Positions 7,053-36,225 of a DNA stretch of 41,126 nt are shown here, piece after piece. Position numbers and translations under genes: made by a program. This stretch comes from Salinivibrio proteolyticus (GTDB lineage Bacteria; Pseudomonadota; Gammaproteobacteria; Enterobacterales; Vibrionaceae), in contig NZ_MUFP01000021.1 of NCBI RefSeq assembly GCF_001996165.1, positions 7,157 to 48,282 of the forward strand, given 5' to 3'. How positions within the stretch are numbered: the first letter of the stretch is position 1; every line of letters starts with the position of its first letter. The notes beneath the pieces are model-generated. The model searched no databases, was not told the origin of the DNA, and saw only the letters and a program-made list of their open reading frames with translations.

Positions 7053-7058
7053 ATAATA

Positions 7059-9083: not shown

Positions 9084-10643
9084 ATGACCGTATTCCAATC
9101 ACGCGATCTTAACTACACAGGTACCGCCGCGAATGCTCTGCGTCACGACGTGGCCGGTAAAGCAAGTTCAGATGTACTCGCGTATCTCGACGATCAGCGT
9201 TTATTTCGACAGCTCGCCTACTGCAATGGCAAGTGGATGAATGGCAACGCCGATACGCCCGTGTTGAATCCAGCCACGGGAGAAATTCTGGGCTATACCG
9301 CCTCACTGAGCGCTGCACAAGTCAATCAAACCATCGACGATGCGCAAGCGGCATTTCATCTGTGGCGTGCGGAGTCGGCCGAAACCCGCGCGGAACGCTT
9401 AATGCAATGGCATGACTTAGTGATGGACAACCAACACGATCTCGCGCATTTGATGGTGCTCGAGCAAGGCAAAACACTTCGCGAAGCCGAAGGCGAAATT
9501 GCCTATGGTGCGTCTTTTATACGTTGGTTTGCTGAAGAAGCGAAACGTGCCTACGGCGACACTATGCCTAGCCATATTCCCAACGCTCACCTTGCGACCT
9601 TACGTGAACCCATTGGCGTTGCCGCTTTGATCACCCCGTGGAATTTTCCCAGCGCAATGATCACGCGCAAAGCGGCAGCGGCACTCGCTATTGGCTGCAG
9701 CGTGATCGTTAAACCTGCGGAAGAAACGCCCTTCTCCGCCCTCGCATTGGCCGAGCTTGCGGAACGCGCAGGGATCCCAGCCGGTGTATTTAACGTGATC
9801 ATGGGTGATGCCCCCATGGTTTCAACTCAGCTATGTCAAAGCGACAAAGTCAAAGCGATGAGCTTTACCGGCTCAACCCGTGTCGGCCGTCTGCTGCTCG
9901 AGCAAAGTGCTCACACTGTGAAAAAATGCGCCATGGAGCTTGGCGGTAATGCGCCCTTTATCGTCCTGCCAGACATGGATATTCAGCAAGCGGCACGTGC
10001 CGCCATCGATGCGAAATTTCAAACCTCAGGACAAGACTGCCTCGCCGCGAACAAAATCTTGGTGCCAAGTGACAAGTACCAAGCCTTTGCGGATGCCTTT
10101 GCGGCATTAATGGACGAACTTGAAGTGGGTAACGGCTTGTTACCCAGCACGGATATTGGTCCATTGATTTCCTCTCGCGCGGTGGATAAAGCGCAAGCCT
10201 TAGTGGATGACGCCATCGCCAAAGGCGCCACCGTGGTTGGCGGCAAGCTTAACCCAAATCTCGGCGAAAACTTCTTTGCACCCACCCTGGTCACCAAAGT
10301 GACACCCGATATGTTGGTGTATCAAGAAGAAACCTTTTGCCCTGTGGCCGTGATCATTGCCTATGATGATCTCGACCAGGCCATTGCCATGGGCAATGAC
10401 ACTGAATACGGCTTAGCCGCCTATGTCTACGGTAATGATATTCGTGATATTTGGCGCTGTCTGCGCGGTCTTGAAGTCGGCATGGTCAGCGTTAATTCAG
10501 TAAAGATGACCGGACATCCTATTCCCTTTGGCGGTGTCAAACAATCAGGCTTAGGCCGTGAAGGGAGCCGTTACGGTATCGACGAGTTTAGTGAAATTAA
10601 ATACTACTGTTTGGGTGGCCTGCCCACCGTGAGCGGCAGCTAA
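9084..10643 (+). CDS. doeC: Aldehyde dehydrogenase DoeC (aspartate-semialdehyde to aspartate)
   Basis: NAD(P)-dependent aldehyde dehydrogenase of 519 residues, close to succinate-semialdehyde dehydrogenases. Catalytic residues are visible: Asn187 in TPWNFPSAM, Glu285 in MELGGNAPF and Cys319 in TSGQDCLAANK, with cofactor motif FTGSTRVGR. Placed next to the DoeD-type transaminase and near doeABX, it is best read as DoeC, which oxidises aspartate semialdehyde to aspartate in the last step of ectoine degradation. GAGGAG sets ATG 9084; a GTG at 9078 overlaps that site. About 32 bases separate it from doeD, so the two are co-transcribed. Confidence 0.85.
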   Translation: MTVFQSRDLNYTGTAANALRHDVAGKASSDVLAYLDDQRLFRQLAYCNGKWMNGNADTPVLNPATGEILGYTASLSAAQVNQTIDDAQAAFHLWRAESAETRAERLMQWHDLVMDNQHDLAHLMVLEQGKTLREAEGEIAYGASFIRWFAEEAKRAYGDTMPSHIPNAHLATLREPIGVAALITPWNFPSAMITRKAAAALAIGCSVIVKPAEETPFSALALAELAERAGIPAGVFNVIMGDAPMVSTQLCQSDKVKAMSFTGSTRVGRLLLEQSAHTVKKCAMELGGNAPFIVLPDMDIQQAARAAIDAKFQTSGQDCLAANKILVPSDKYQAFADAFAALMDELEVGNGLLPSTDIGPLISSRAVDKAQALVDDAIAKGATVVGGKLNPNLGENFFAPTLVTKVTPDMLVYQEETFCPVAVIIAYDDLDQAIAMGNDTEYGLAAYVYGNDIRDIWRCLRGLEVGMVSVNSVKMTGHPIPFGGVKQSGLGREGSRYGIDEFSEIKYYCLGGLPTVSGS

Positions 10644-10675
10644 TTAAGGTTTGCGTAAGGATAAGGAGACTGATC

Positions 10676-12079
10676 ATGCGTCCAGAAACGAAAGCTTTGT
10701 TGGAAAAAGACAGAAATACCGTCTTCCACGCATCAACACACTTGAAGCAGTACGCCCACGGCGAAATGCCTGGCCGAGTGATTGAGACAGGTAAAGGGAT
10801 TCGTATCACCGACTCAGAAGGTATTGAGCTGATTGATGGGTTTGCGGGCTTGTATTGCGTGAACATTGGTTACGGCCGCGAAGAAATGGCCGATGCCATT
10901 TATGAGCAAGCCAAAAAGCTCGCTTACTATCACACCTATGTGGGCCACACCAACGAAGCACTGGTGACCTTGTCTGAGCGACTCATCAAGATGGCGCCGG
11001 GCATGAGCAAGGTGTATTACGGGATGTCAGGCAGTGACGCCAATGAATCACAAATCAAGCTGGTGTGGTACTACAACAACGCTCGCGGCAAACCCGAGAA
11101 AAAGAAAATCATTTCTCGCGATCGCGGCTATCACGGCTCCAGTATCGCATCCGGGTCGTTAACAGGGCTTCCCTTGTTCCATGCGCATTTTGATCTGCCC
11201 ATAGAGCGTATCAAGCACACCATGGCACCCTACTATTATCGTCGTGAAGACAGCGGCATGACAGAGCCTGAGTTTGCACAACATTGTGCCGATGAACTCG
11301 AGAAAATGATCCTTGCGGAAGGCCCTGATACCGTCGCCGCGATGATTGCCGAACCCGTGCTTGGCACCGGAGGCATCGTACCGCCACCAGAAGGTTACTG
11401 GACCGCAATTCGCAAAGTGTTGGATAAATACGACGTTCTGCTGATCGCCGATGAAGTGGTATGCGGCTTTGGCCGTATTGGCAGTGACTTTGGCTCGATT
11501 TACTATGATATGAAGCCTGATCTGATCACCGTTGCCAAAGGCTTAACGTCCGCTTATCAACCCCTATCTGGGGTGATGATCGGTCACAAGGTGTGGGATG
11601 TGCTGGAAGACGGTACCGATGCATGGGGAGCCATTGGTCACGGGTACACCTATTCAGGCCACCCACTGGGCGCGGCCGCCGCGCTATGTAACTTAGACAT
11701 CATCGAACGCGAAAACCTTACCCAAAATGCTGCAACCACGGGTGAGTACCTGCAAATGAAGATGCAAGCCGCTTTTGCGGATCACCCATTGATTGGCGAT
11801 AGCCGCGGAATTGGTTTGCTCCATGCGCTCGAGTTCTCTCCCGATCGCGCCAATCGTAGCCACTTTGATCCCAACCTGAAAGTGGGACCACAAGTTGCTG
11901 CCGCGTGCTTGGAGCAAGGCTTAATTGCCCGTGCGATGCCACACGGCGATATTCTCGGCTTTGCGCCACCTTTAGTGGTGACACCCAACGAAGTCGATGA
12001 AATTGTCGCCAAAGCAAAAGTGGCAGTCGACAAGGTGATGGATAAACTGGTCACTAGCGGACAATGGCAACCGAAGTAA
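10676..12079 (+). CDS. doeD: Diaminobutyrate transaminase DoeD (class III aminotransferase)
   Basis: PLP-dependent class III aminotransferase of 467 residues. Motifs seen: substrate loop YGMSGSDANESQIKL, RDRGYHGSS, cofactor Asp259 in LLIADEVVCGFGRIG, and Schiff-base Lys288 in TVAKGLTSAYQPLSG. The family includes omega-transaminases of many substrates. The placement after doeC makes conversion of 2,4-diaminobutyrate to aspartate semialdehyde the likely role. AAGGAG lies 8 bases before the ATG. The gene ends in a bidirectional terminator shared with the converging transporter. Confidence 0.85.
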   Translation: MRPETKALLEKDRNTVFHASTHLKQYAHGEMPGRVIETGKGIRITDSEGIELIDGFAGLYCVNIGYGREEMADAIYEQAKKLAYYHTYVGHTNEALVTLSERLIKMAPGMSKVYYGMSGSDANESQIKLVWYYNNARGKPEKKKIISRDRGYHGSSIASGSLTGLPLFHAHFDLPIERIKHTMAPYYYRREDSGMTEPEFAQHCADELEKMILAEGPDTVAAMIAEPVLGTGGIVPPPEGYWTAIRKVLDKYDVLLIADEVVCGFGRIGSDFGSIYYDMKPDLITVAKGLTSAYQPLSGVMIGHKVWDVLEDGTDAWGAIGHGYTYSGHPLGAAAALCNLDIIERENLTQNAATTGEYLQMKMQAAFADHPLIGDSRGIGLLHALEFSPDRANRSHFDPNLKVGPQVAAACLEQGLIARAMPHGDILGFAPPLVVTPNEVDEIVAKAKVAVDKVMDKLVTSGQWQPK

Positions 12080-12103
12080 CAGAGCATCACCACCGCTAAA
12101 CGT

Positions 12104-12133
12104 AAAAAAGCGCCGATAATCGGCGCTTTTTTT
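12104..12133. terminator. Bidirectional terminator between doeD and BCCT gene
   Basis: GCGCCGAT / ATCGGCGC stem with A-run before and T-run after, so it works for both convergent genes. Confidence 0.85.
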
Positions 12134-12153
12134 ATCGATGGCGTATACCACGC

Positions 12154-13698
12154 TTAGCTTGCTGTCGCAGGCTCTAGCGCAAGATTCGCTTCTTTCTCTT
12201 TTTGCATTCGCATCACCGCTATTGGGCCAGTAATGAAAGTAAACGCAATCAAGAAAGAGACAGGCACAGCTGTGATCACAATGAACGACTGCAACGCATT
12301 CAAGCCGCCTTCACCGGCCAGCAAGAGCACTCCGGCTACCACGCCCATGATAATCGCCCAGAATAGGCGATGCGCGCGTGTCGGTTGATTGTCACCAGAG
12401 ACAGCCATCGCAATGGAATACGCCATGGAGTCACCTGTGGTCGCCACAAAGGTGGTGGTCAACAGCATAAAGGCTGGGATCAATACCACGCTGTACGGCA
12501 ATTGTGATAGCGACGCAATCAAGATCGCCGGCAAACCCGCGTCCGCCATTGGACCGGAAATGCTGCCCGGAGACTGCAACTCATAGAAAATACCCGTACC
12601 ACCCAGTACTGAGAACCAGAAGTTAGTCGCAATCGGTGCACAAATCGCAACGGCAAAGATCAGTTCACGAATAGAACGGCCTTTCGAGATGCGTGCAATA
12701 AAGATGGCCATCATGGGTGCAAAACCAATGAACCAGCCCCAGAAGAACCAGGTCCACCATGCATTCCAGCTGCCGTTATCGGTGTTGAGTGCCAGCGTGT
12801 GCATGTTGTTAAGGTAATAGCTAAAGCCAGCACCAAACTGCTCAAAGATAAAGCCCGTTGGACCCAGTACGATCACAACAGCAAGCAGCACGGCCGCACC
12901 AATCACATTCATCCGGCTTAACCATTGCAGACCTTTATCCATTCCCGTAAAGGCGGAAATAGAGTAAATCGCCACTACCGCGGCCAAGATCAGCATTTGC
13001 ATCGACATGGTGTTCTCGATACCGACAAAGCTTTCCAAGCTGTAACCCAACTGGGTGGCAAGGAAGCCAATCGGACCAATCGTGCCCGCCGCAACGGCAA
13101 TGATAGAACACGCATCAATCACAGAGCCTAACCAGTGATTTTCTAGCTTGTCACCGAGCAGCGGATATAACAGCGCACGAGGACGCAGACGCACGCCTGC
13201 TTGGTGGTGGGCATACATCAGCACGATGGTCGCCAAGGTGCCCAACACCGCCCAAGCTAAAAAGCCCCAGTGGAAGAAGCTTTGGCTTAACGCAGGGGCG
13301 ACCGTTTGCATCGCGCCGGCTTCCATCTCACCTAACGCCGGAGGAGGCGTCATAAAGTGGTAGATGGGTTCAGCCGCTGACCAAAAAACACCGCCGCCCG
13401 CAAGCAGGGTACACATGATCATAGCAACCCAGCGGAAACGGCTCATTGAGACTGTATCGGTGGCACCCAGTTTCAACTTACCAAATTTACTGCCGCCAAT
13501 GGCTAGCGCCAGCACGAAATTGATCACCATCAGCCACTGCCACCAGTAACCAAAAAGGTTGGCAGATTCAGCAAACAGCGACTGAATCACAGTGGAAAAA
13601 TGTTCGAGGTCAAACAGGGCAAAGGCAAGGAAGAGAGCGACAAAGCCGATAGTAAAGACGGCAACAAGTCGATCGTTATTTTGTGTAGATTTAAGCAT
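12154..13698 (-). CDS. BCCT-family compatible-solute transporter
   Basis: Inner-membrane sodium- or proton-coupled transporter of the betaine/choline/carnitine family, about 514 residues with twelve predicted membrane segments. Family signatures are GGSKFGKLKLG near the N-terminus and WWTWFFWGWFIGFAPMMAIF followed by IARISKGRSIREL. N- and C-terminal tails are short, unlike the long osmosensing tails of BetP-like members. Position facing doeCD suggests it imports ectoine/hydroxyectoine or betaine for use as nutrient. The substrate is inferred. ATG 13698 is preferred; the frame can extend to a GTG at 13731 without a clear ribosome site. Confidence 0.88.
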   Translation of the reverse strand: MLKSTQNNDRLVAVFTIGFVALFLAFALFDLEHFSTVIQSLFAESANLFGYWWQWLMVINFVLALAIGGSKFGKLKLGATDTVSMSRFRWVAMIMCTLLAGGGVFWSAAEPIYHFMTPPPALGEMEAGAMQTVAPALSQSFFHWGFLAWAVLGTLATIVLMYAHHQAGVRLRPRALLYPLLGDKLENHWLGSVIDACSIIAVAAGTIGPIGFLATQLGYSLESFVGIENTMSMQMLILAAVVAIYSISAFTGMDKGLQWLSRMNVIGAAVLLAVVIVLGPTGFIFEQFGAGFSYYLNNMHTLALNTDNGSWNAWWTWFFWGWFIGFAPMMAIFIARISKGRSIRELIFAVAICAPIATNFWFSVLGGTGIFYELQSPGSISGPMADAGLPAILIASLSQLPYSVVLIPAFMLLTTTFVATTGDSMAYSIAMAVSGDNQPTRAHRLFWAIIMGVVAGVLLLAGEGGLNALQSFIVITAVPVSFLIAFTFITGPIAVMRMQKEKEANLALEPATAS

Positions 13699-13804
13699 TA
13701 GTTCGCTCACAAGGTGTGTGAGGGGCGGCACTCTATCAGTGTGGCGAACGAATGACCAGCATAAATTGCATCGAACACTAACGATAAAAACGTGACAGAC
13801 ATCA

Positions 13805-24815: not shown

Positions 24816-25064
24816 TTGGCTGAACTCGATCATAGTTCAGATGAATATATTATTTTTGCTAGAAAAGGGCACGACACTTTGTCTGATGAGACGCCTACCG
24901 CGGCAGCGCTAGAAGCAATGCGCAACGCGAGTCTCATCGCTATCCAATCCCTCACACCTATTGATTTCACACATAGTTACACAACGGTGCGCTTTTGCGC
25001 TTTACATCGATTGCGGGTCGATGAACACTGCTTGGCAGAGTATAATGACACCGATATCACGTAG
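24816..25064 (+). CDS. Doubtful small ORF, 82 residues
   Basis: Open frame between pnuC and the VC0807-family gene. It has a mixed polar sequence without membrane segments and is not recognised. A strong AAGGAGG at 24795-24801 lies 14 bases before the TTG at 24816, too far. An in-frame ATT at 24804 is at 2 bases. There is no ATG nearby, so either a rare start is used or the frame is chance. It ends 15 bases before the next gene, which would fit an operon. Confidence 0.3.
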   Translation: MAELDHSSDEYIIFARKGHDTLSDETPTAAALEAMRNASLIAIQSLTPIDFTHSYTTVRFCALHRLRVDEHCLAEYNDTDIT

Positions 25065-25079
25065 AGTTAGTCACACATT

Positions 25080-25775
25080 ATGAGCAATACCACCGCGAAA
25101 AAGCCGAGCCCCCTGTTTGAAATCCTGTTCAACGTTTTCATCCCCTCGATCATCCTGATGAAGTTGAGCGGCGATGAATACCTAGGTACAGCCATGGCAC
25201 TGGTCGTCGCTTTAGCCTTCCCTCTCGCTTACGGCGGGATGGATCTGGTCCGTAACCAGAAATTCAATTTTATCGCAGCACTGGGCTTTGTCAGCGTATT
25301 ACTGACAGGCGGAATTGGCCTACTCGAGCTCGATACCCGTTGGCTAGCCTTAAAAGAGGCGCTGATCCCCGGCCTTATTGGCTTAGCGGTATTAGGGTCA
25401 ACCTTTACCCGCTATCCACTGATGCAGAAGTTAATTCTGAATGACACCGTGCTCAACCTCTCGTTGATCAATCAGCGCTTAAAAGAGAAAGGGCAATCCG
25501 ACGCCTTTGATCGCTGCTTGATGTGGTCAAACTACCTGTTCGCCAGCACCTTTGTGTTCTCATCGGCGATGAACTACTTCCTTGCCACGTGGATTGTCAC
25601 CAGCCCTGCCGGCACGTCCGCGTTTAATGAAGAGCTAGGCAAAATGACGCTGTACAGCTACCCGATGATTGCTATCCCTAGCATGTTGATGATGTTCGGC
25701 ATCTTTTACTACATTTGGCGTCAGATACGCGCGATGACATCGCTTGAAACAGAGCAAATTTTCCACCTGAAATAA
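25080..25775 (+). CDS. VC0807-family inner-membrane protein
   Basis: Membrane protein of 231 residues with about six hydrophobic segments. Blocks such as NVFIPSIILMKLSGDEYLG, GFVSVLLTGGIGLLELDTRW, LIPGLIGLAVLGSTFTRYPL and ATWIVTSPAGTSAFNEELG recall the Vibrio VC0807 family, whose function is unknown. The charged loop around residues 120-155 is probably cytoplasmic. No partner gene is evident. It ends facing the TIGR02450 gene across a shared terminator. Confidence 0.75.
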   Translation: MSNTTAKKPSPLFEILFNVFIPSIILMKLSGDEYLGTAMALVVALAFPLAYGGMDLVRNQKFNFIAALGFVSVLLTGGIGLLELDTRWLALKEALIPGLIGLAVLGSTFTRYPLMQKLILNDTVLNLSLINQRLKEKGQSDAFDRCLMWSNYLFASTFVFSSAMNYFLATWIVTSPAGTSAFNEELGKMTLYSYPMIAIPSMLMMFGIFYYIWRQIRAMTSLETEQIFHLK

Positions 25776-25812
25776 CAAACGCCACGCGCGCCGTTTCAAA
25801 AACAGATAAAAA

Positions 25813-25835
25813 AAGGGAGGATAGCCTCCTCCCTT
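25813..25835. terminator. Bidirectional terminator
   Basis: AAGGGAGGA / TCCTCCCTT stem with seven A residues on its left, giving a strong T-run for the minus-strand gene. Confidence 0.8.
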
Positions 25836-25841
25836 GCGTTA

Positions 25842-26057
25842 TCACTTCCACCCTTGACGCCACTTCTCGTCACTTTTGAGCTCACGCCAGTCAATCGGAT
25901 ATTCTTTTTTCGACAGCACCGACTCGAGCACGCATAGCACCACCACACCGTCTTCATCATACTCAACGTCAGAGACGACAAAGTGCTTCTCGCGATTAAT
26001 GGGTTTGACCGCCGTCCACTTACTATTGCGTAACTTGGCTGGATTAATCTGGTTCAC
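25842..26057 (-). CDS. TIGR02450-family Trp-rich small protein
   Basis: Soluble protein of 71 residues. The pattern NPAKLRNSKWTAVKPINREK, KHFVVSDVEYDEDG, and the C-terminal IDWRELKSDEKWRQGWK match the TIGR02450 family of small Trp-containing proteins, common in marine gamma-proteobacteria and of unknown function. GTG 26057 gives the usual family length; an ATG 13 codons upstream (26096) would add an atypical N-terminus. The gene stands alone, with a terminator directly behind it. Confidence 0.8.
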   Translation of the reverse strand: MNQINPAKLRNSKWTAVKPINREKHFVVSDVEYDEDGVVVLCVLESVLSKKEYPIDWRELKSDEKWRQGWK

Positions 26058-26147
26058 GACTGCCCCGTTAGATACTGCATCGGTTAAACATAACAATATC
26101 TAGTACGAACGAGGTTCGGTTTGGTTCAGTGGTTAGGGTTGGAGTAA

Positions 26148-26177
26148 CTCGTTCCCACGATGGAGCGTAGGAACGAG
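26148..26177. repeat. REP-like palindrome, copy 1
   Basis: CTCGTTCCCACG-ATGGAG-CGTAGGAACGAG with one mismatch. It resembles the GTTCCCACGCTC...GTGGGAAC palindromes scattered through gamma-proteobacterial genomes. A second, shortened copy lies at 27398-27419 in inverted orientation. Confidence 0.6.
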
Positions 26178-26211
26178 AGTAAAGCGTCTCAAGTCAGTTT
26201 TTGGTGTTGCG

Positions 26212-26637
26212 CTACTGTTCTTCTGCGAGCACAGCAACTCTTTCCAAATCCCGACTCGGGAAGTCAGGATCGACATACACATACATACGACTGATGAGCT
26301 CTTCATTAAACTCAAATACACTACAAAAGCGCCCCGTAGACACCTTGTTATCCGGCCAAGGGGTGCCATCACTCATCACACCGCCCTCTTGCCCTTCGAC
26401 AATAACCTTGTTACCAGCCGTTGTGATTTCAAAACCCTCAATATCGTGCCAAATACTTGAGAGCGAGCTACCAATTCTATTGCCAAACTCAACCAGCGCG
26501 CTTTTCCCTTTCGCTTGGCCAAATTTAGGGAAATAGAAATCCACATCCTCAGAAAATAAATCCAAATAGCTAGAGTCTCCTGCATCTATTTTCTGGAAGT
26601 ACTGAATAACTCGCGGCACTAAGTTTTCTTTATTCAT
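26212..26637 (-). CDS. SnoaL/NTF2-like protein
   Basis: Small alpha+beta barrel protein of about 141 residues. Features are an N-terminal helix LVPRVIQYFQKIDAGDSSYL, then DLFSEDVDFYFPKFGQAKGK (typical NTF2-like start with Asp and the PKFG turn), a central strand region, and the C-terminal SRMYVYVDPDFP. NTF2-like proteins act as small-molecule isomerases, hydrolases or binding proteins; no substrate can be named. ATG 26637 gives the family length; an ATG at 26655 is also in frame. It lies between REP-like palindromes together with the next gene. Confidence 0.7.
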   Translation of the reverse strand: MNKENLVPRVIQYFQKIDAGDSSYLDLFSEDVDFYFPKFGQAKGKSALVEFGNRIGSSLSSIWHDIEGFEITTAGNKVIVEGQEGGVMSDGTPWPDNKVSTGRFCSVFEFNEELISRMYVYVDPDFPSRDLERVAVLAEEQ

Positions 26638-26799
26638 CTCTACATCTACATCCATTTATAATCCAGCATCTAGGCGTTAAGCTAAAAAAACACCTATATT
26701 TTATGCGACTTTTATCACCAAAATCACACGCACCCTGCGAACCTAGCTCTTTCGAGACAGCTATTCGTGGCGCGAATTCTGAGCGAACTCTGTAACCTG

Positions 26800-27378
26800 C
26801 TATTCAACACAAGCTAACACTGACTTGTACGCTTTTCTAGCCTCATCGCTTAAAAAGCGATCCATGCTCTGAAACAACGCCCACAGTTCAGCGCCGTGCT
26901 GAAGCTTGAAATCATTGCTGCTATATACAAGTTCTAGTTCGTTAGCGACCGTTAACTCACAAAACAGCCTCGTCATCTCGCTTTCAAGTTTGAAACATAA
27001 ACCACTAAACCTGTCTTTAAACTCTATCTCAGCCCTTTGAGCGAATTGAGGAAAAACATAGTCTCGATCACATGAACAATATAAATAGACTAACGCCTCT
27101 TCTTCCCGCCCAATCACCTGTGCGATTTCTTGGCGCTGTTCCAGTGAAACCATTTTCTCATCGAAACCCGCCGTACCATACGCGGCATGAAAGAGGCCTG
27201 CTGTTTGAAGTAACTCGCCGCTCCCCCAACGGGCTAAAAGGCTCGCCGTTCCTTTTAAATGCGATTCCAAAGACCCATTGAGATGTTGAAAGTCTCCTGC
27301 ACCAAGTTGTTGAAGAGCCCTAAATTTGTCCATAAAGCGAATCCCTTGTACTAAGCCATAGTTGACGGTCTGTTTCAC
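26800..27378 (-). CDS. DUF6817-like (HD-related) protein
   Basis: Soluble protein of 192 residues. The N-terminal half reads HLNGSLESHLKGTASLLARWG and then LLQTAGLFHAAYGTAGF, which fits the DUF6817 pattern, a family that looks like a divergent HD hydrolase (His-containing helices, AGLFH-YGT). Metal-binding residues cannot be confirmed without a structure comparison. The C-terminal half (about 110-192) is helical and charged. The upstream base sequence is a shortened REP-like element. Function unknown. Confidence 0.65.
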   Translation of the reverse strand: MKQTVNYGLVQGIRFMDKFRALQQLGAGDFQHLNGSLESHLKGTASLLARWGSGELLQTAGLFHAAYGTAGFDEKMVSLEQRQEIAQVIGREEEALVYLYCSCDRDYVFPQFAQRAEIEFKDRFSGLCFKLESEMTRLFCELTVANELELVYSSNDFKLQHGAELWALFQSMDRFLSDEARKAYKSVLACVE

Positions 27379-27397
27379 ATAGCGTTATTTCCTTTCC

Positions 27398-27419
27398 CTC
27401 GCTCCTGCGTGGGAACGAG
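27398..27419. repeat. REP-like palindrome, copy 2 (shortened)
   Basis: CTCG followed by CTCCTGCGTGGGAACGAG: matches the opposite strand of copy 1 (26148-26177) with about seven bases of the left arm missing and two changes. Confidence 0.5.
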
Positions 27420-27587
27420 AAAAGTGTCAGACGCAGCGCCTACCTATGCACTTTCGAGCTATATGTCACAGGATTGGCAGGCAGCGGTGAGACCGCAGTA
27501 AGAGACCTTCTATATGTGTTTGCCGTAAGCAATGACTTAATGGCGGAAAGGACAGAACGAAGTAGACGACTTTGTTGTTCGAGAGCA

Positions 27588-27606
27588 TTGGCTGCTGCGC
27601 AGCCAA
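27588..27606. repeat. Hairpin at left end of cassette array
   Basis: TTGGCTGC-TGC-GCAGCCAA, 8 perfect pairs. It could be part of a worn attC of the first cassette, which should lie here, or a terminator. Confidence 0.35.
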
Positions 27607-27646
27607 GAAATGCTATTGCCTATTGACCGGAGAAGGGCTCATATGT

Positions 27647-27653
27647 GTTAGGT
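27647..27653 (-). repeat. Core site GTTAGGT of the left-most cassette
   Basis: It is the complement of the ACCTAAC at 28261, as expected for the two ends of one cassette. A full attC to its left is not clear. Confidence 0.45.
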
Positions 27654-27657
27654 AAAT

Positions 27658-28245
27658 TTAGTAAAGCGTACGATTACCCAAAACTACAAAGTCTTTTTGA
27701 GCCTCAACGAATGTTCTACCTGCTTTATTTATTTCCATGGCTTGCTTTTTCTCATGCGGCTTAATTGGCTTCTCTTTATAGCCAACACCATAAATGGAAA
27801 TACTATCACTCATTGGAGGGTTCATGGGGACAGTATATTTTGAAATTAAGCCAGCAAACTCAGATGCTGTATCGTGCGCATGTAAATACGAGTGGTTAAG
27901 CACCTGATCTGAAAATTGAAAATCTACTCCGTTGCCTTTCTCCACAAATTGGCACAATGAGTTCCAAGTTGTTATATGTAGAGGGGCTAAGAAATCATGT
28001 TGCTCAAGCATGTCAATCAAGCCAGAAGTAAACATTTTGTCTTTATATAACTCAAACAATTCAACATCTCTGGTATTGGGTGGTGTTTTGACGTCAGAAG
28101 ACTTATTCCTTCTGTAAACTTCGAGTGCAACAAGCACTAAACCTAATCCAACGATTATGGCTTCATAGTTACCATCTGGATTAGCTACCCACATTCCAAC
28201 CAGAACGCTTGAAGCTATAAGGACTAACAGCTCTATAATAATCAA
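27658..28245 (-). CDS. Cassette protein, membrane-anchored, unknown function
   Basis: Protein of 195 residues. The N-terminus holds two closely spaced hydrophobic helices (about 2-20 and 27-43) and then a basic YRRNKSS, so residues about 45-195 should be cytoplasmic. That part is mixed helical and ends VVLGNRTLY. There are no known catalytic motifs. AT-rich, between cassette core sites at 27647 and 28261. Its place beside the STAND NTPase cassette gives no proof of shared function, because cassettes are inserted one by one. Not recognised. Confidence 0.65.
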   Translation of the reverse strand: MIIIELLVLIASSVLVGMWVANPDGNYEAIIVGLGLVLVALEVYRRNKSSDVKTPPNTRDVELFELYKDKMFTSGLIDMLEQHDFLAPLHITTWNSLCQFVEKGNGVDFQFSDQVLNHSYLHAHDTASEFAGLISKYTVPMNPPMSDSISIYGVGYKEKPIKPHEKKQAMEINKAGRTFVEAQKDFVVLGNRTLY

Positions 28246-28260
28246 CGTCTAACCTCATTT

Positions 28261-28330
28261 ACCTAACGCCGCGCTCACCGGAAAATTGGAGCGAAGCGTA
28301 AATTTTTCCGAGTGCAGCGCCTTGTTATGC
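28261..28330 (-). repeat. attC site of the STAND NTPase cassette (70 bp)
   Basis: Cores ACCTAAC and GTTATGC enclose a near-perfect stem: GCGCTCACCGGAAAATT on the left pairs with AATTTTTCCGAGTGCAGCGC on the right, with a few extrahelical bases as usual for attC. Confidence 0.85.
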
Positions 28331-28367
28331 GATTCTTTAGACGACTACCGAAAGACACTTTGATTGC

Positions 28368-31300
28368 TCAATTTGTTGGCTCTTCTCTGTTGCACCATAT
28401 ACTGCCTACAGGCTTGCCATCTTTATACTTAAACAAGCCGCTATAAACCAAACGACCAAAAAATTGACTTGCTCCAGAAGAAAACATCTGCTTCTCTCCG
28501 CCTATTAACCAGACGATCTCCATATCATTTTCATCAAGCCATTTCTGTAATTTCTCAGTACGCATTAACGCATATGAAGGGCCGTATTCTTCTAGGCTTG
28601 GATCAAAAAATACAGACTGCTCCTTGTGCTCCCATCGCCCCCATTGACCGGGAGGTCTAGCCAAGTCCATTTCCTCAATCAACTCCTTTGCTGGCATATG
28701 GAAGTAAAGTGAACTATTGAGAGAATAATCGTTACCGCCATCCTCCCATTCGTATTTAGCAAATGGAATAAGGTGTTCGACTGCAATCTGTTCCCTAAAG
28801 ACCTCTTCTGGTTCCCTCCATCCAGAAAGGTGGCGATATATTGGATGCCAAGGATATTCGCCTAAAAAGCCCTCGTGTTGCGTTGATGGTGCGCTGACTA
28901 TATCGGGATCACAAAGTGTTTTTCTCTCAACTCCTTTAGCTAAAGAATCAAAAGCTCCTTTACGGATGAAGATAGAATTAATTCTGAACCACCCATCAAG
29001 ATAGGGACTTTCGATATTATCATCTGAATATTTCCTATTTTCAGACCAAAAGCCGCGTAAAACCAGCCAATTAGACTTGTCGGCAGGCATCGTCCTTTGC
29101 AGTAACTCAGAGAATTCAGGCAAAACATCTTCATCCCACAAAAAGTTAGTCTTGGCTGCCAGGTCATTTTCATTTGGGAATGGGAAGTTATAAGGTTGCC
29201 ACCAAGTACACTGCTTGTTGTGATAGGTTTTGAATTCTCCGGATTGTCTTGCCCAGATAGTAGGATCAATATCGCGTTTGTATATTTGCCAAGGCCCTTC
29301 ATAAATATCATCATCGGGAACATCGCTATAACCTCGATTAGTCCAATGGTAGTTATCAGAAAGTCTGGCCAAAAACTCATGGAAGGCCATCCATTGGTAT
29401 TTTTTCCCAACACGCTCCATTGCTCCACCACTGGGACCACCACCCCTTCCGTGTGAGCACATTCTTTCAAAATCAGCAAATAGCTCTTCAGTCCATCCAA
29501 ACTCATGGGCTCGTTTACAAACCCATCTTTGAGCCCATTTCCTACTAAAGGCAGCAGGTCTATCGTTACTTACTCCAGAAACCCAGCGATAATACTCTTG
29601 TTGCTCTTCATTGAGCTGTGCATTTACTCTGCTATCAAACTCTTCTTGTTCTTTCCTTCTATCTTCAAAGCTGCGTTTATACTCTTCAGAATCATACTCA
29701 ATTCTTCTAATAGCCTTTAATAACTCTTCTGGTGAAGCTGAAGTGTCACTTACTGGTATTGGTTCCAGTTTTTCCAAATATTCTTTTTTCACATCGTCAG
29801 TTAATAGTTCGCGAGCAAATCGCTCCTTGATCTCATAACCATTCTCTATTTTTGGTAAGGCTATAGGTGTTGAAGACCAATTATGAACACAGCCCATGGT
29901 GTAGTTTCCAAAGTCACCCGGAAAACCCATTAAAGAACTTTTGATTCTTGATGAAAATTCATCTCCAGCTATGCCTTCTATCTCTTTTTTGGATGGATTA
30001 TCCAGTTTTTGGCTACTCTTATAAGGTGGCCTGAATTGTTCAGGAGGAATTTCTACCGAAAGTACTCCAATATGCAAGGCATACTCTAAAATCCCGCGAG
30101 CATAATCTCTAAGCAGAATATGCGGCGTTGGCTCACCATCCTTAAATATCAATTCAAATGTGGTGCTCGCTATACCCTTAATAACATCTTCTTTGTCGGT
30201 ATTGCAAATGACACCATATGCAACGGCATAAAGCCTCTCGCTTAAGTACGTATCCTCTAGATTCGAGAACTCATTTAATAAGTCTTCAACGAGATGGGGG
30301 TAAGAAGAAATAATTCTGACCAGGGATTTTGTAGATCGATCTCTTATTCTTCTATTCGGGCTAGTCAAAAACCAAATAAGGGTAATAGCACAGAGCCTAA
30401 TTCTTTCTTCTTCGACAGACTCAATTTCACCAGAATGTGCCCACTCAATAATTGTTCTAATGATGGATTCATATTCATCATCTTCTTCAGAGCTATCACC
30501 ATACGCTATGCGTATAGACCAAAAGTGGTCTCTTTCGGCAATCTCTTTATTCATAAGATTTCGATGAAGCAACTCAGCATTCCATGGGTGATTGGGTTCC
30601 GTTGACAATTTCAACAAAATATCCAATGCTGGGTGACTGTAGGAATGACCTTCTAAGTTATTTAAAAGCTCCAGAGTTCTTTCAGAAAAAGAGCTTGGAC
30701 TCCTCCATAAAACAGTATTCTGAAAAGTCTCATCAAGCTGCCACTTCCCAACTTCAATATCATCAGGCAGCAAATCCTCTAATTCCATATTGAAACGCTC
30801 TGCAATAATGACGGCTAAAGCTTCGAATATCCCAGAAAAGCGGTAGTAACCATTATCTTTGAGTAATTGCCCTATAGAACCCCCATCTAAAAATGCTGCT
30901 TCAATATTATTTACCCGATTTACTAATTCCTGAGCAATAAAATAATCACTAAATCGTTCATATGTAAATCTGACAATAAGATTTCCACGCTGTTCAGCTT
31001 TATAAGACACATCCTCAGAAAGAATGCCCTCATCGATCAATATGTCGAAAAGGCTATCCCCATGATTTGGGTTTGGATCGTAATTATTAATCAGTTTTCT
31101 AACATCTTGCTTCGGAAGGCCTTCAAGATTATCTGGCAATAATTTTGAAGCTATATCAATAAGTATGGACTTAACGATATTCTCTTGCGGATTGAATCTT
31201 TTCTTTCTCGCCACAATCCTTTCAATGCTATCAACATAAAAATCAAATAATGAGGTAACAGAGTTCAGACCTTTTGGAAATGAGGTTAGCTTATTTTGTT

Positions 31301-32897
31301 TAAGCGCTTGGCAGCATGTTTTCAAGAAAAGTGGATTTGTAAATTCAGGCGCTAATATTGGTGCGCTTGGTTTTGATATGCCTTGCTGGGAAAGAAATTT
31401 CTCCGCAGCCCTATGCTCATGCCCTCTAAACCCATAATGTCCTATGCGAGGCAACAAGCTTTCGCCTGCACTATCGGGAAGAATGTAACTTAGGTAAGTG
31501 CTACGGCAACTAAACAGAACGGCAATATTTGGAAATCGTGATAAATCCGATAAAAACCCTGTTATTTGGTTATGCCAGTCATCTCTGTTATTTCCTTCAT
31601 TGATAGCATCAATGACAATGAGTGCTCTCTCTCCAAATGCTTCCCCTGCTGCGTCTATAGCTCCTAGGATTTGGGAATTTCTATAGTTTTGTAAGTCCAA
31701 TGATTCTTTTATAAAACTACTTGGGTCCCCACCTTGATATTGAGCACCCAACAAAAATAATGTAGGTAAATTCATGTCAATTCTATGCAAACTTAAGTCA
31801 CATAGGAGGTGTGATTTACCTATTCCAGCTTCCCCGTAAAGAAGCGCAGCTTTCGTATGGGATGAAATGGCTTTTTTTTGTTTGATGAAAGATGCTAGAT
31901 CATCTATTGCACCATCTAATCTATATAGGTTACTTCTAGAGTTTTCTTTTTTTTCAGACCAATCAATTTTATCGATTGCATCTTTATAGACATCGGCATA
32001 TAGCTTAGAGAGCCCTTCTAGTAAAGAGCTTATACTTGAGATTCGATTGTGGAAATCTTTGTGCGCAACTCCTTTACCAAGTTCATTCAAAAAATCATTA
32101 AGCTGTTCATCCAAGCTTTTTACTATTTCGCCATTTAATAATGTGCCTTCAGTGGTGCTTTCTTCATTCAAGAAAGAAATTACATCTAAACTAGCATCTT
32201 TTAACTCTGCTCTCCTTTCTCTTAGAAGCTCCCACCATGAGGAGTTTAAACATAGACCATCGAAACTACTTGCAATGGGAAGATCAACGTGAAACTGAGG
32301 TGTGTACCTGTCTCCCAAGCTAACCTGTGACCTTTTTGCGATGTTTTTGAATACATCTAACCCGAGAAATGGTTCGTTAAACCAGTACAGCGATCTACCA
32401 GAGTAAAGGGGGTCATCTATCGTAAGAAAATTAGTAATCTCATGCTTACCCCAGTATGAAAAATCTATTTCTCGACCTAGTACTTGTGCTTGGTTTTTCC
32501 ATTTTTTGACATGATCTAGCCACTCATCTTCAACAGAAACTACTTGTTTCCCACCTTTTCCTTTCTTTCTGCTATCAGCTTTATCTAAAGGTAAACAGAC
32601 AATATAATGTGTTAACTTGGGATGCTTTTCTAAGGCTGTAGTAAAAGATTCATCTATTTGTTGCCAACGGGAGGAATTCATTCCATCTAAAAAATATTTA
32701 GCTTGCCAACATATCTCCGAGTCATCTCCAAGAATCCAGTAACATTCAACACCGGCATCACCTCCAGCGCCATCCTTCTTAACAAACCGCTTTCCATCAT
32801 CTGGTTTTTGAAGGTGGGCAATTTGGCAAATCAACTCTTCAAAGCCTGAGTTTTTACTACCATCATGTGTTCTAATGTGAGAGAAGTTAATTTCCAT
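28368..32897 (-). CDS. Avs-like STAND NTPase with N-terminal nuclease domain
   Basis: Very large protein (1509 residues), probable anti-phage sensor. Residues about 1-130 look like a PD-(D/E)XK (Mrr/Cap4-type) nuclease: Glu20 in [14 protein letters not shown] with Asp47 and Glu51, and WQAKYF with Gln65 and Lys67. A linker follows. The P-loop NTPase has Walker [13 protein letters not shown] (Lys361), Walker [12 protein letters not shown] (Asp430) and LFSCRSTYL as sensor. The remaining thousand residues, helical and Trp/Tyr-rich toward the end, would be the recognition part. Avs proteins bind phage terminase or portal protein, then assemble and activate the nuclease. Which Avs type this is cannot be settled here. 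An integron cassette of about 4.7 kb is unusually long. Confidence 0.8.
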
Positions 32898-32978
32898 ATA
32901 TAAACTCTTAAATTTACTAAATATTTTTTGACTGGTTATAACCCCAGGTCTTATTCAATTACCCAGTAGACTTGCAAC

Positions 32979-33027
32979 GCATAACGCCCGCAATCACGCG
33001 CTTGTCGCGTGAATTGCTTTGTTAGCA
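32979..33027 (-). repeat. attC site of the HIT cassette (49 bp)
   Basis: Very short attC. Cores GCATAAC and GTTAGCA surround the stem GCAATCACGCG / CGCGTGAATTGC with loop CTTGT and one extrahelical A. Confidence 0.85.
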
Positions 33028-33041
33028 TACTTCTTCAATGC

Positions 33042-33443
33042 TCATAGTTCTTTAAGTGATTCTCTTAGTTTATCCATAGTTTGAATTCCAAGTTCACTAC
33101 TAACCCAACCGTACTGGTCGCCATGGAATCTAGGGAAAATATGCAAATGGTAGTGGTCGAGCTCGTTGAAATGAGGGGCCTCTCCATTGTTTTGCATAAA
33201 GCCTATACCATCGGGATTGAACTTAGCTTCTATACGTTTATATAAATCTCTTGCAACGTCGGTGATCTCTAAAAACACAGACTCAGGCAGGTCAATGAAA
33301 GTACGGTATTGAGTCTTAGGACAAATTAAAATGTGTCCAAAGTTGATTGGGTCGTGGTCCGCAAAAGCTATAACTTGGTCAGATTCGTAAACGATGACCG
33401 AGTCAATTTCACGATTAACAATTTGTTCGACTATCGTAGTCAT
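33042..33443 (-). CDS. HIT-family hydrolase (cassette gene)
   Basis: Histidine-triad protein of about 133 residues. It contains the catalytic HYHLH (His97, His99, His101) in LDHYHLHIFPR, and the usual upstream blocks ESDQVIAFADHDPINFGHIL, LICPKT and IGFMQNNGEAPHF. HIT proteins hydrolyse nucleotide-linked compounds such as AMP-lysine, ApnA or nucleoside phosphoramidates. The substrate here is not known. ATG 33443 gives the normal N-terminus; a TTG at 33458 is in frame. The gene is the only one in a 0.48-kb cassette. Confidence 0.88.
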   Translation of the reverse strand: MTTIVEQIVNREIDSVIVYESDQVIAFADHDPINFGHILICPKTQYRTFIDLPESVFLEITDVARDLYKRIEAKFNPDGIGFMQNNGEAPHFNELDHYHLHIFPRFHGDQYGWVSSELGIQTMDKLRESLKEL

Positions 33444-33462
33444 CTGAACGCCTATCAAAGTA

Positions 33463-33588
33463 TGCTAACGCCTTGTTAAGGTGTGAGGCACGCAATACCG
33501 ATACTACCGCATACCACCTTAACCACTAAAACCAACGCATAGTAAAAATGCCAAGCGTGCCGAATCACTCTTGAACAATTTGTTATAC
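33463..33588 (-). repeat. attC site of the DUF6602 cassette (126 bp)
   Basis: Cores TGCTAAC and GTTATAC. Left arm GCCTTGTTAAGGTGTGAGGC then ACGC pairs with right arm GCGTGCCGAATCACTCTTGA then ACAA. Size and right-arm pattern are like Vibrio repeats. The stop codon of the gene lies inside the GTTATAC core. Confidence 0.85.
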
Positions 33589-34437
33589 GATTTTTCTACT
33601 TTGCCCCAATAGTGATATGGGAAACTTTTTTGCCTCTAGGCTTTCCCCAACTGAACCATAAAAGTAATCACAAGGGTTATAGTCAACTAAAGGAGCAACG
33701 CGCAAAAAGTTAAGAAGTTCAAAAGTAATTTCTAACAATGGAGGGGTGTAATTTTCAGCTTTAGCATCCGAAATAATAAAACCATATGCCTTAGTGGGAA
33801 CTGCTGTTACCGTAAAATTTTCCTCGATATACCTGAAAGATGACCCCCTCACATCTACATACATATTTGGCCACTCTGACATATCAGGATTCGATTGAAA
33901 AAAATACTGAAAAGCCTCCATTAAAGACTCTGTCGACAACGAACTCTCTGTTAGAATTGCACCAAATATCTGATGTTCAAACCTGTCAGGATGAACTTTT
34001 CCGACATTTCTCCCACCACTAATAATACTATTAAAACCATTATTGGTTCGGTCTAAGCACTTGACTGATTTTATATTTTCAAGAGCCTGATTTAGTGTTT
34101 TATTACTATTTATCGAAGCTTTTACTTCAATTACAGCAACTACAGACTCTGCCATAAAATAATTGACATTCCCAACAGTAATTACCGGATGATAATCATC
34201 TCGAAAGATCAACACATCTATCTGTTTACTTACTCCACCTCTAGCATCAATTACAAAGCCTGTACCAATCTTCACGCTCTTTGGAATAATTGCTCTAAAG
34301 TAATCTGTGATGATTTGCTCTCGCGCTCGACCACTTTCTGCTGGATGCTCTATTAATTTTGACAGCTCAAGCTTTTCAAGCACCTCTTTATTTAAGCTTT
34401 TAATAACCTTTTCGATAAACGGTAAAGGCATAAACAA
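33583..34437 (-). CDS. DUF6602-like protein, putative PD-(D/E)XK nuclease (cassette gene)
   Basis: Soluble protein of 284 residues. The segment HPAESGRAREQIITDYF, then GTGFVIDARGGVSKQIDVLIF, then ESVVAVIEVKASI recalls the DUF6602 family and has the layout of a PD-(D/E)XK nuclease: Glu40, Asp74 in the QIDVLI strand, then Glu104-Val-Lys106. Such domains are often found near defence genes, yet no partner enzyme is present in its cassette. CAGGAGG lies just upstream of ATG 34437; ATG 34431 is an alternative. The TAA overlaps the attC core, so the cassette is compact. AT-rich. DNA cleavage is an inference. Confidence 0.72.
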   Translation of the reverse strand: MFMPLPFIEKVIKSLNKEVLEKLELSKLIEHPAESGRAREQIITDYFRAIIPKSVKIGTGFVIDARGGVSKQIDVLIFRDDYHPVITVGNVNYFMAESVVAVIEVKASINSNKTLNQALENIKSVKCLDRTNNGFNSIISGGRNVGKVHPDRFEHQIFGAILTESSLSTESLMEAFQYFFQSNPDMSEWPNMYVDVRGSSFRYIEENFTVTAVPTKAYGFIISDAKAENYTPPLLEITFELLNFLRVAPLVDYNPCDYFYGSVGESLEAKKFPISLLGQSRKIV

Positions 34438-34448
34438 CCTCCTGAATC

Positions 34449-34576
34449 GTATAACGCCGCATTAAGTGGTGAGCAACGCTAACCACCCGACCTAAACCAT
34501 TGTGACATAGACACTTAAACCGAAGTAAGACGAAAACACCAAGCGTTGGGAATCCGTCTTAAATGCTTTGTTAAAC
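34449..34576 (-). repeat. attC site of the 137-residue cassette (128 bp)
   Basis: Cores GTATAAC and GTTAAAC. GCCGCATTAAG on the left pairs with CTTAAATGCTTTG on the right, and CCAAGCGTTGGGAATC matches the right arm of the 33463-33588 site, so the two are related. Confidence 0.85.
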
Positions 34577-34984
34577 GTTTTTTTCAGCAATCACAATTAA
34601 GCTATCGGTATACGAATATCCGTAACCATAACCGAAGCTAGCACCGCCTGAAACCGCTTCTGTATTGCCCATAATACGAGCTGAACTTGAAATACCTTGA
34701 GCTTGGTACTTAAAATCATAGGCTCCCGACATAACCGGGGTAACAGATTGAACTTTATAACCTTCACGATTTAGCGAATTAATAACTTGCTCTAGATCTG
34801 TAGCTAATCGATCTGTATCAATTTCACAATCAGACCATCCTGTTTGCTTCCATTGTTTTTCTTTCCGAGTAACTTCTTTCTGCCCACCAAATAAGCCAGT
34901 CTTAGTTTCCCCTGTTGGAATTTTAACAGTGACTTCTTTACCTAGCGCAACAAAATAACTTTTTACTAAAACAACCTTATTCAA
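34571..34984 (-). CDS. Cassette protein of 137 residues, unknown function
   Basis: Soluble protein, not recognised. Sequence in order: a strand-rich start (VVLVKSYFVALGKEVTVKIP), a Lys/Gly-rich middle with FGGQKEVTRKEKQWKQTGWS, a helix around residues 60-75, and a Gly/Tyr-rich segment GGASFGYGYGYSYTDSLIV near the end. The Gly/Tyr patch is unusual and could be disordered or a glycine loop. It starts with TTG at 34984 after AAAGGAG (8-base spacing), with no ATG alternative. The stop TAA lies in the attC core at 34570. Single-gene cassette. Confidence 0.65.
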   Translation of the reverse strand: MNKVVLVKSYFVALGKEVTVKIPTGETKTGLFGGQKEVTRKEKQWKQTGWSDCEIDTDRLATDLEQVINSLNREGYKVQSVTPVMSGAYDFKYQAQGISSSARIMGNTEAVSGGASFGYGYGYSYTDSLIVIAEKNV

Positions 34985-35028
34985 TTTAAGTACTCCTTTA
35001 CGTTTTAAGGATCTGTGAATCGAGAAAC

Positions 35029-35077
35029 GTTTAACATTGTATTAGTGCGCACGCACGATTTCCCAAAACCGTTATAC
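35029..35077 (-). repeat. Right-end cassette boundary, probable worn attC
   Basis: GTTTAAC (35029) matches the complement of GTTAAAC at 34570 as the other end of the 137-residue cassette. GTTATAC lies 36 bases further. The inside shows little pairing, so the site is probably truncated or decayed, or is the trace of an attI. Confidence 0.4.
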
Positions 35078-35540
35078 GCACTCTTTTCTATCTAATAGAC
35101 TGTTATTATTAGAATTTCTCACCTCTAGTGGATACTGCTCTTCCGCGAAAGTGTGCATGCCGCCTATCCCGGCCAAGGCGTTCACATTATCCCCAAACAT
35201 AAATCTGTAACTATATGACTAATAAGCTTTTTTAATCATCCATTCTGGGATAGTGTGAATCTGTCACAGATAAACGTGCACGCTTTTGCCTGTATCTAGC
35301 CGATAAGCTGGTTAAGTATCCAGTGTTTAGCCACACGCTACCGCCGATCAGTTGTCGGCACCTAACACGCCATTTATTGGCTATTTTGCCTACTAGTGTA
35401 TCAAGCGCTGTGTTGCTTTTCGTGCGCCATTGTCCAAAGTGTTAGCCAAGCCTTGTTTTGTTAGATTGGTCCCAAAAAGGCGAGTCGTAATCGCCTGATT
35501 CGGGTTTGAACGTTGCGAGTTATTTTGATTGAACGAGATT
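35078..35540. other. Non-coding region at right end of array
   Basis: About 460 bases with no convincing gene; a 64-residue minus-strand frame (35393-35587) has no support. It contains the attC-like 35360-35466, GCCGA...TCGGC near 35354, and an ATCTGT-C-ACAGAT palindrome near 35263. It may be remnants of lost cassettes. Confidence 0.45.
35360..35466 (-). repeat. Possible degenerate attC
   Basis: ACCTAAC and GTTAGAT 107 bp apart, with TTGGCTA inside the left end pairing TAGCCAA inside the right end at matching distance. It lies left of the PfpI-like gene, where that gene's attC would be if it were an old cassette. Confidence 0.3.
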
Positions 35541-36158
35541 TTAGGTAGGAAGAGGAGTGACTTTTGCTGACTGAATTGTTTCTTCAATCAGTGCTTCATA
35601 TGTTGCTGCTTGTCCAGCCGGGAGCAATTGACGATGCATTTCTCGGCGCACGTTTGTATCAAATAAGCGTTCTGCCACCCATCCGGTTAGATAAAGTGCC
35701 GATAAACATCCACCAGCCGTGGCGATGTTGCCATCAATCACTAACGGCTGGTCTTGCACTTCTGCGCCCATGGCTTCAAGCGCAGGTTTAGCATCGGGAT
35801 GCGTGGTCAGTTGACGCCCGCCTAACAACCCTAATCGATACAAAATAAAGGAGCCTGCACAAATCGAGCCGATAAGTTGGTGATTGGGATTAAGCGATAG
35901 AGCTTTCATAAACGCATCGTCGTTTAATGCGGCAGGTACGCCTTTATAGCCACTGGTAATCAATACAACATCAGCTTCACTTGCTTCACTGAGTTCCCCA
36001 TCTGTTGTTACCGAGAGCCCAAGCGTCGATGTGTGTTCGGATTTGGTGCCAAGTACGCGTACATTCCAATGTTGAGGGAGACGTCCAAAGATATCGCGCA
36101 TGAGAAAGAAATCGATGTCGGTAAACGCATCAAATAGCACAATCGCAACGGTATACAT
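35541..36158 (-). CDS. DJ-1/PfpI family protein
   Basis: Protein of 205 residues with the class I glutamine-amidotransferase fold. The nucleophile elbow is GSICAGSFILYRLGLLGG (Cys100) and a conserved acidic residue is near Asp16 (TDIDFFLMRD). TTHPDAKPALEAMGAEVQ and GNIATAGGCLSALYLTGWVAE are typical of the isonitrile-hydratase/AraC-partner branch, but no DNA-binding domain is attached. Enzyme activity unknown. Base composition is like the core genome. Unlike the Hsp31-like copy at 2085-2774, this one is short and lacks the insert around the His. Confidence 0.82.
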   Translation of the reverse strand: MYTVAIVLFDAFTDIDFFLMRDIFGRLPQHWNVRVLGTKSEHTSTLGLSVTTDGELSEASEADVVLITSGYKGVPAALNDDAFMKALSLNPNHQLIGSICAGSFILYRLGLLGGRQLTTHPDAKPALEAMGAEVQDQPLVIDGNIATAGGCLSALYLTGWVAERLFDTNVRREMHRQLLPAGQAATYEALIEETIQSAKVTPLPT

Positions 36159-36225
36159 AATATCCTTTTACATTATAGCCAGTGATTTCAATAAGATATC
36201 ATGATTTACGATAAAAGGAGAGCAA

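Follow-up and report, generated by a model that had tools for sequence, protein, structure and literature searches.

The described systems closest to the locus reported here are the Avs2 (AVAST type 2) immune proteins and the defence genes carried in integron cassettes. Avs1-3 are described as sensing terminase (PMC12724215), and a Klebsiella Avs2 as sensing terminase plus Ksap1 (PMC12931631). Section '5. Chromosomal integron' of PMC12409362 states that integron defence genes have been streamlined to a compact form, with a notable absence of larger multi-gene systems; two further papers give restriction-modification, Kiwa and Shedu genes in Xanthomonas integron cassettes (PMC12444791), and a median coding sequence of 362 bp for sedentary integrons against 575 bp for mobile ones, with excision tests on inserts of 60 to 3,060 bp (PMC5371416). 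Here we analyse a stretch of 41,126 nt from Salinivibrio proteolyticus (contig NZ_MUFP01000021.1, positions 7,157 to 48,282, hereafter the window), in which a gene for a 1509-aa protein, avs2, lies between two attC sites. We consider it probable that the gene encodes an Avs2 immune receptor and is kept as one integron cassette, that the receptor senses terminase, and that the cassette was transferred by an integrase and is now probably fixed. Both the kind of protein and the kind of carrier are known, and it is their combination that is unusual. Integron-borne defence cassettes have reportedly been described by Darracq 2025, Kieffer 2025 and Getz 2025 (reviewed in PMC12409362); these too are anti-phage genes in attC-bounded cassettes, but small ones, whereas here a single 4.5-kb gene fills a 4.7-kb cassette. 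We saw no description of an Avs cassette in the titles and abstract beginnings of the papers listed on defence genes or Avs in integrons; an earlier report in the Darracq, Kieffer, Getz or Gao papers is possible.

Matches in PADLOC, NCBIfam and the PDB agree on the family, and by sequence we therefore assign the protein to Avs2 or to a close sister of it, a known type. The PADLOC Avs2 model PDLC02164 matches end to end with 1753.2 bits (residues 1-1508 on profile positions 2-1500 of 1504), and six PADLOC Avs2 models, at 1753-715 bits, top the list. The NCBIfam Avs2 model NF041813 gives 983.3 bits over profile positions 3-1316 of 1317, with a curated cut-off of 1000; of two relatives scored with the same model, one lies over the cut-off (L051, 1048) and one under it (L048, 963.6). 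The Avs2 structure 9o4e is the sole PDB sequence matched by phmmer up to E 0.1 (E 3.3e-144, residues 190-1499). One chain joins an N-terminal effector, a STAND NTPase with Walker A (GEAGIGKSH, residues 355-363, containing K361) and Walker B (IDAINEG, residues 429-435, containing D430) and a C-terminal sensor. Pfam gives nothing over its cut-offs on the protein, with weak NACHT and AAA_16 matches below them. The avs2 family is under purifying selection: the ratio of nonsynonymous to synonymous change is 0.10 against L048, 0.12 against L049 and 0.17 against the C-terminal part of L050, while synonymous change against L051 is saturated. The first-pass annotation, made from the letters of the window, had recognised a STAND NTPase of Avs-like kind whose head is of nuclease type, which the Avs2 profiles, the motifs and the predicted fold bear out, and its named residues (D47, E51, Q65-A-K67, K361 and D430) are where it placed them; at the same time, it had been unable to assign the protein to a known Avs type and had proposed a search with Avs profiles, in which the Avs2 models lead. 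A new Avs type is not indicated, the protein fitting Avs2 in PADLOC, NCBIfam and 9o4e.

The head of the protein is predicted to have a PD-(D/E)XK nuclease fold. AlphaFold2, run on residues 1-200 with an alignment of 39 heads, gave a mean predicted local distance difference test score (pLDDT) of 91.7, and the best PDB fold match of this model is Avs4, 8dgf_B (Z 13.4, 143 aligned residues, 2.9 A), followed by rows with Z of at most 9.2 that are mostly restriction enzymes and other nucleases. Residues E20, D47, E51, Q65 and K67 are identical in 39/39 aligned heads, and a profile of these heads searched against PDB sequences found Avs4 alone, weakly (E 0.011). The protein thus shares a predicted head fold with Avs4, but the NCBIfam Avs4 model yields 13.7 bits against a cut-off of 1500, on residues 48-123 only, and Avs4 membership is ruled out. 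Compared with the Avs2 of 9o4e, sequence homology is seen only from residue 190 onward and overall identity is low; because homology starts there and the head profile finds only Avs4 in the PDB, the effector may differ from that of 9o4e. We attach no weight to 9o4e not being among the fold rows shown for head or tail. A further difference from other Avs2 is the setting, an integron cassette.

For the rest of the protein, the predicted model of residues 311-1509 has a pLDDT of 84.4 and its best Foldseek match is terminase-bound Avs3 (E 3.0e-7). In VIA-align the tail matches the same terminase-bound Avs3, 8dgc_A, with Z 13.5 over 443 aligned residues at 6.2 A, while the Avs4 match to residues 311-1509 has Z 11.0 and lies on the NTPase part. 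Since in this comparison helical repeats can reach Z of about 13 by common arrangement, we regard the tail match as supportive of an Avs3-like sensor, not as proof. The likeness to Avs3 is one of predicted C-terminal sensor fold; on the other hand, Avs3 models are absent among the PADLOC and NCBIfam matches of the protein up to E 10. By analogy with the family, the sensor would bind some protein produced by an infecting phage, with the terminase large subunit as the likeliest one; after sensing, protomers carrying ATP would oligomerise, and DNA cleavage by the nuclease heads would then end the infection at the cost of the cell.

It is nevertheless conceivable, although we think it unlikely, that this Avs2 recognises something other than terminase, for example portal, a Ksap1-like or another phage protein, the tail fold saying little about the ligand. 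The fold match extends over one part of Avs3 and has 6.2 A, the solved Avs2 is of low overall identity, a Klebsiella Avs2 is described as also binding Ksap1 (PMC12931631), and protein-sensing defence systems may have more than one trigger (PMC12931631, PMC12724215). We favour terminase on the ground that it is terminase-bound Avs3 that gives the best match over the tail, whereas the Avs4 match covers the NTPase part. The first-pass annotation had thought a Trp/Tyr-rich end peculiar and the phage target perhaps new. Tryptophan and tyrosine make up 9.2% of the last 509 residues and 5.1% of the first 1000, but the tail reaches at least 7% in 19/25 aligned relatives as well (range 5.3-10.0%). Because the closest tail fold is that of terminase-bound Avs3, in a protein of Avs2 type, nothing points to a new target; after the structure prediction and the comparison with Avs3 and Avs4 that this annotation had called for, its nuclease head stands, as a predicted Avs4-like fold, and a new target is not indicated.

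The gene is bounded on both sides by attC sites. Cassette borders are counted from G^TT exchange points, and the features so defined are collected in Table 1. Sites were scored with a purpose-written program based on attC anatomy, not with IntegronFinder, and tuned on sites of the window and the genus; stricter versions recovered 1/4 and 2/4 of the window sites, and relaxing the outer bases recovered 4/4. These four sites lie in consecutive gaps, all on the minus strand, which is the strand of the genes, while three further places in the window score 11.0-12.0, which is background-like. In first-order Markov resamples of the window (n=150), 0.033 sites scoring at least 15 were found per 41 kb, against the 4 observed. 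The avs2 gene is followed by its own attC and preceded by another in the same orientation, and on the single-stranded bottom strand both flanking sites (28261-28330 and 32979-33027) form R and L stems with extrahelical bases. Moreover, bases 32982-33026 of the upstream site agree at 45/45 positions with an attC from the array that adjoins the intact integrase gene (intI) of another genome of the genus, G092. The cassette is also foreign in composition, with a GC content of 39.6% compared with 50.6% for the window outside 25001-36200. A 4726-bp gap between attC sites on contig C7 is probably an artefact of attC sites missed by the scorer. An attC-like stretch at 35360-35466, picked by eye, fails the scorer, and a search of the window with Rfam at its gathering thresholds found 0 matches, whether Rfam includes an attC family not being established. 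The first-pass annotation had proposed a large gene in a single cassette of exceptional size, unless attC models were to score neither flank; with 4718 bp between sites that score 16.0 and 17.5 in our scorer, that proposal has held.

Could the attC sites be chance hairpins, with ordinary recombination, homologous or illegitimate, having brought the gene in? Folding is indeed weak at two of the four sites, and the scorer was tuned on sites from the window and the genus. Against that stand the four same-strand sites in consecutive gaps, the homology to a Pseudomonadaceae locus that stops at both exchange points (see below), and the attC flanks of a relative outside the tuning set, L051, so that we consider this explanation very improbable.

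Evidence for movement of the cassette came from relatives found by scanning genome contigs; there were at least 490 of them, and the analysis used the best 80 (80 loci, 1.27 Mb). The nearest of these, L050, belongs to a metagenome-assembled genome (MAG) of the Pseudomonadaceae: window 28264-32988 aligns with L050 2284-7009 at 91.4% by BLASTN over 4732 columns, and the alignment starts and stops at most 4 bases from both exchange points. In the 13 kb of window compared there is no more homology to L050, save attC likeness. As an alignment pattern, this is what transfer of a single cassette between two arrays leaves. Within L050 2375-6900, identity to the window gene steps from 83% over residues 1-422 to 93.5% over residues 416-1509, perhaps by recombination within the gene.

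More distant relatives also carry attC sites. L051 (Methylophaga aminisulfidivorans), with an Avs2 of 54% protein identity, has them on both sides (16.5 and 14.5), and L058, at 56% identity, has one on one side (15.5). Across the 80 loci, all 5 plus-strand sites scoring at least 15 fall in L050, L051 and L058, and minus-strand sites of that score number 0; since 4 minus-strand sites reach 14, a score of 14 alone is unreliable. In the other 77 loci no attC of at least 15 flanks the gene, the reach of the loci on both sides not having been checked. As a separate observation, L059 (Rhabdochromatium marinum) shares the 5' part of the cassette at 86.7% over 2020 columns, starting exactly at the G of GTTATGC (L059:5969), on a contig that has no attC of at least 13 and stops inside the gene; this relative would be either a first cassette after attI or an insertion at a non-classical site. 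In a Thiomicrorhabdus MAG (L062:8001-11042), an 80%-identical Avs2 ends near residue 650 and is followed by an IS481-like transposase gene (215.5 bits, cut-off 224).

The host range is patchy: Avs2 occurs in 1/8 genomes of the genus, own genome included. Matches of any kind were found in 15/329 genomes of the family, own included, where the identity in the others is 29-33% along the long stretches and no higher than 41% along the short ones, and in 5/369 of a sample of the class, own genome included. Plasmid carriage was seen in 76/72,556 records, all below 60% identity. Because viral segments have at most 29% identity (2/50,697 phage records plus 10 viral-contig loci, best segments), no close phage-borne relative was found.

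Several of our results weigh against an Avs2 receptor that moves as a cassette. With respect to the protein, the NCBIfam Avs2 cut-off is missed by about 17 bits, and the Avs3 match of the tail is just 1.0 above the next VIA-align row (Z 12.5), which covers the NTPase part. With respect to transfer, the upstream attC of L050 differs from that of the window and instead resembles the Avs2 cassette's own attC (84%, 69 columns), its 3' attC (6940-7012), a diverged copy of the Avs2 cassette attC, has a score of no more than 11.5, and a break near residue 420 divides its gene between two frames, for which reason the MAG copy may be broken or mis-assembled. In addition, only L050 and L051 have attC on both sides and L058 on one, L048 and L049, relatives at 78-79%, have no attC of at least 13, and the Avs2 cassette is, on these attC scores, an exception among the best 80 of at least 490 relatives. 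Finally, no sigma-70-like promoter was found at the 5' end of the Avs2 cassette.

The array itself is not a complete integron. It has a putative attI, as judged by the likeness of 35032-35101 to the sites at the intact intI of G091 and G092, but no intact intI beside it. No intI (TIGR02249) over the cut-off was found in the assembly of 51 contigs, tblastn of IntI against the window gave nothing significant (best E 6.2), and intI over the cut-off occurs in 3/8 genus genomes. All that the genome retains of its own intI is a broken fragment on contig C7 (L006:1374-1681), beside an attI-like site and cassettes. Clusters of attC without an integrase (CALIN) likewise have several attC and no adjacent intI; the window array differs from them in starting at an attI-like site. 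As to how the cassette came here, an integrase would have excised it from some array, and insertion would have been either at attI or between two attC sites. Three cassettes now separate it from attI, making Avs2 the fourth in the array, and these would have come later.

Because the assembly holds only the broken intI, this copy of the cassette is probably stranded, or fixed, now, and expression of Avs2 from the fourth place is uncertain. A stricter version, compatible with a cassette origin, is that the gene arrived by integron recombination and is now a stranded relic, neither mobile nor expressed. We take this as a serious contender without preferring it: the lack of intI over the cut-off other than the fragment on C7, the three intervening cassettes and the lack of a promoter-like site all speak for it, while the open reading frame is intact in a family under purifying selection, though neither dates the last use, and an assembly of 51 contigs could miss an intact intI. 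The reading we prefer remains an Avs2 receptor in a transferred cassette that is probably immobile now. The claim of the first-pass annotation that the immune protein is movable by integron recombination is supported for past transfer, given the borders shared with L050, and not for present-day movement, with no intact integrase in the 51-contig assembly.

We searched 8 genus genomes for the 19-base core of the attI-like site with at most 2 mismatches and found it in 43 places in 8/8 genomes, 2 to 9 each, compared with 0 for the reversed control. Twenty-one of the 43 sites were examined in 20 stretches (6/6 in G091, 6/6 in G092, 7/9 in G000, the own genome, and 2/6 in G096). Within 1.7 kb upstream (less at stretch ends), intI was intact at 2/21, broken at 2/21 and not found at 17/21. 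At the same time, 17/21 had an attC of at least 13 in the right orientation within up to 6 kb downstream, while in resampled DNA the rate is 0.41 such sites per 41 kb for the two strands together, or about 0.03 per 6 kb and strand. Some of the 17 are weak: at G091 C2:222k the sole attC match is doubtful, lying inside a stretch homologous to a window gene, and G096 C6:2035k has just two weak matches (13.5); two sites on C10 have one attC in common. Of the 4 attI-like sites lacking attC, two lie close to the end of a contig (C19, C31). At 20/21 sites some 70 bp are conserved and divergence begins directly after GTTA, the exception being the second C10 site; such a pattern in the alignments is what one would expect of an attI exchange point. 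Beyond the genus, the core with at most 1 mismatch occurs in 8/321 family genomes, a count uninformative on other attI sequences.

The esterase gene adjoining the window attI-like site has a match in 8/8 genus genomes. Beside it the attI-like stretch is kept in G091, G092 and G093, whereas G096 has part of the leader with other contents between, and no IntI match was found in the esterase-locus stretches of these four genomes. The simplest reading of such alignments is that of several integron platforms, old ones from which intI has been lost and which an integrase may serve in trans. We tentatively extend this, as an idea that we hold somewhat less firmly than its opposite, to a dispersed integron in the genus, with at most one intact integrase per genome, several attI-like docking sites on both chromosomes, many with short arrays that would have to be served in trans, and with large defence systems (the 4.7-kb Avs2 and a 6.8-kb type I restriction-modification plus Kiwa unit of the Pseudomonadaceae) moving between families as single cassettes.

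Table 1. Features of the cassette array and of the Avs2 protein, in window positions. Fold z-scores compare the single-stranded bottom strand with 100 base shuffles.
Feature	Position	Strand	Details
Gene after the Avs2 cassette	27658..28245	minus	195 aa, no family match; no own attC by scorer
attC of the Avs2 cassette	28261..28330	minus	score 16.0; bottom-strand fold z -2.4
Avs2 gene cassette	28267..32984	minus	4718 bp, between two G^TT exchange points
avs2 open reading frame	28368..32897	minus	1509 aa, ATG start, uninterrupted
C-terminal sensor (predicted)	28401..30413	minus	residues 829-1499; model m3926b2ddb64f, fold match to Avs3 8dgc_A
STAND NTPase and helical region	30918..31910	minus	about residues 330-660; borders approximate; Walker motifs
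N-terminal effector, predicted PD-(D/E)XK nuclease fold	32373..32897	minus	residues 1-175; AlphaFold2, structure search
attC of the preceding HIT cassette; borders the Avs2 cassette on its 5' side	32979..33027	minus	score 17.5; fold z -4.4
HIT-domain cassette gene	33042..33458	minus	Pfam HIT 5.7e-20
attC	33463..33588	minus	score 15.0; folds less clearly, z -2.2
NucC-like PD-(D/E)XK nuclease cassette gene	33583..34437	minus	284 aa; PADLOC NucC 1.3e-26, PD_DExK 1.7e-33; Pfam DUF6602
attC	34449..34576	minus	score 16.0; folds less clearly, z -1.5
First cassette gene	34571..34984	minus	137 aa, no family match
attI-like site	35032..35101	minus	ends ...GCGCACTAATACAATGTTA; no intI beside

Among the neighbours, the NucC-like nuclease cassette stands two places before Avs2; its 284-aa protein has no NCBIfam match, and a Pfam scan of ten neighbouring open reading frames found no cyclase. 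On the other side of the Avs2 cassette, positions 27464-27653 are 190 bp without an open reading frame of at least 80 aa, repeated at 96-97% twice in contig C7 and once near the G092 array, and may be a small transposable element or else a recombination site of large size.

The Pseudomonadaceae locus L050 offers a second large unit directly after its Avs2, from about 7007 to 13800, between attC 6940-7012 (11.5) and 13729-13800 (15.5). It holds HsdR and HsdM (Pfam) and HsdS, KwaA and KwaB (PADLOC), with KwaA and KwaB under their NCBIfam cut-offs (48.2 of 100 and 20.5 of 200), and no plus-strand attC of at least 8.5 was found between the two sites, making this 6.8-kb unit a candidate single cassette. 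A TnsE-like gene follows the type I restriction-modification and Kiwa genes on the opposite strand.

The borders and homologies described above suggest that integron recombination can carry a large immune receptor from one array to another. If the dispersed attI sites with their few integrases are active, the integron would no longer be pictured as one locus. The two natural attC sites 4.7 kb apart are a ready test of cassette size, and, with a 4.5-kb NLR-like receptor found within sharp cassette borders in two bacterial families, cassette size would not exclude large single-protein immune systems.

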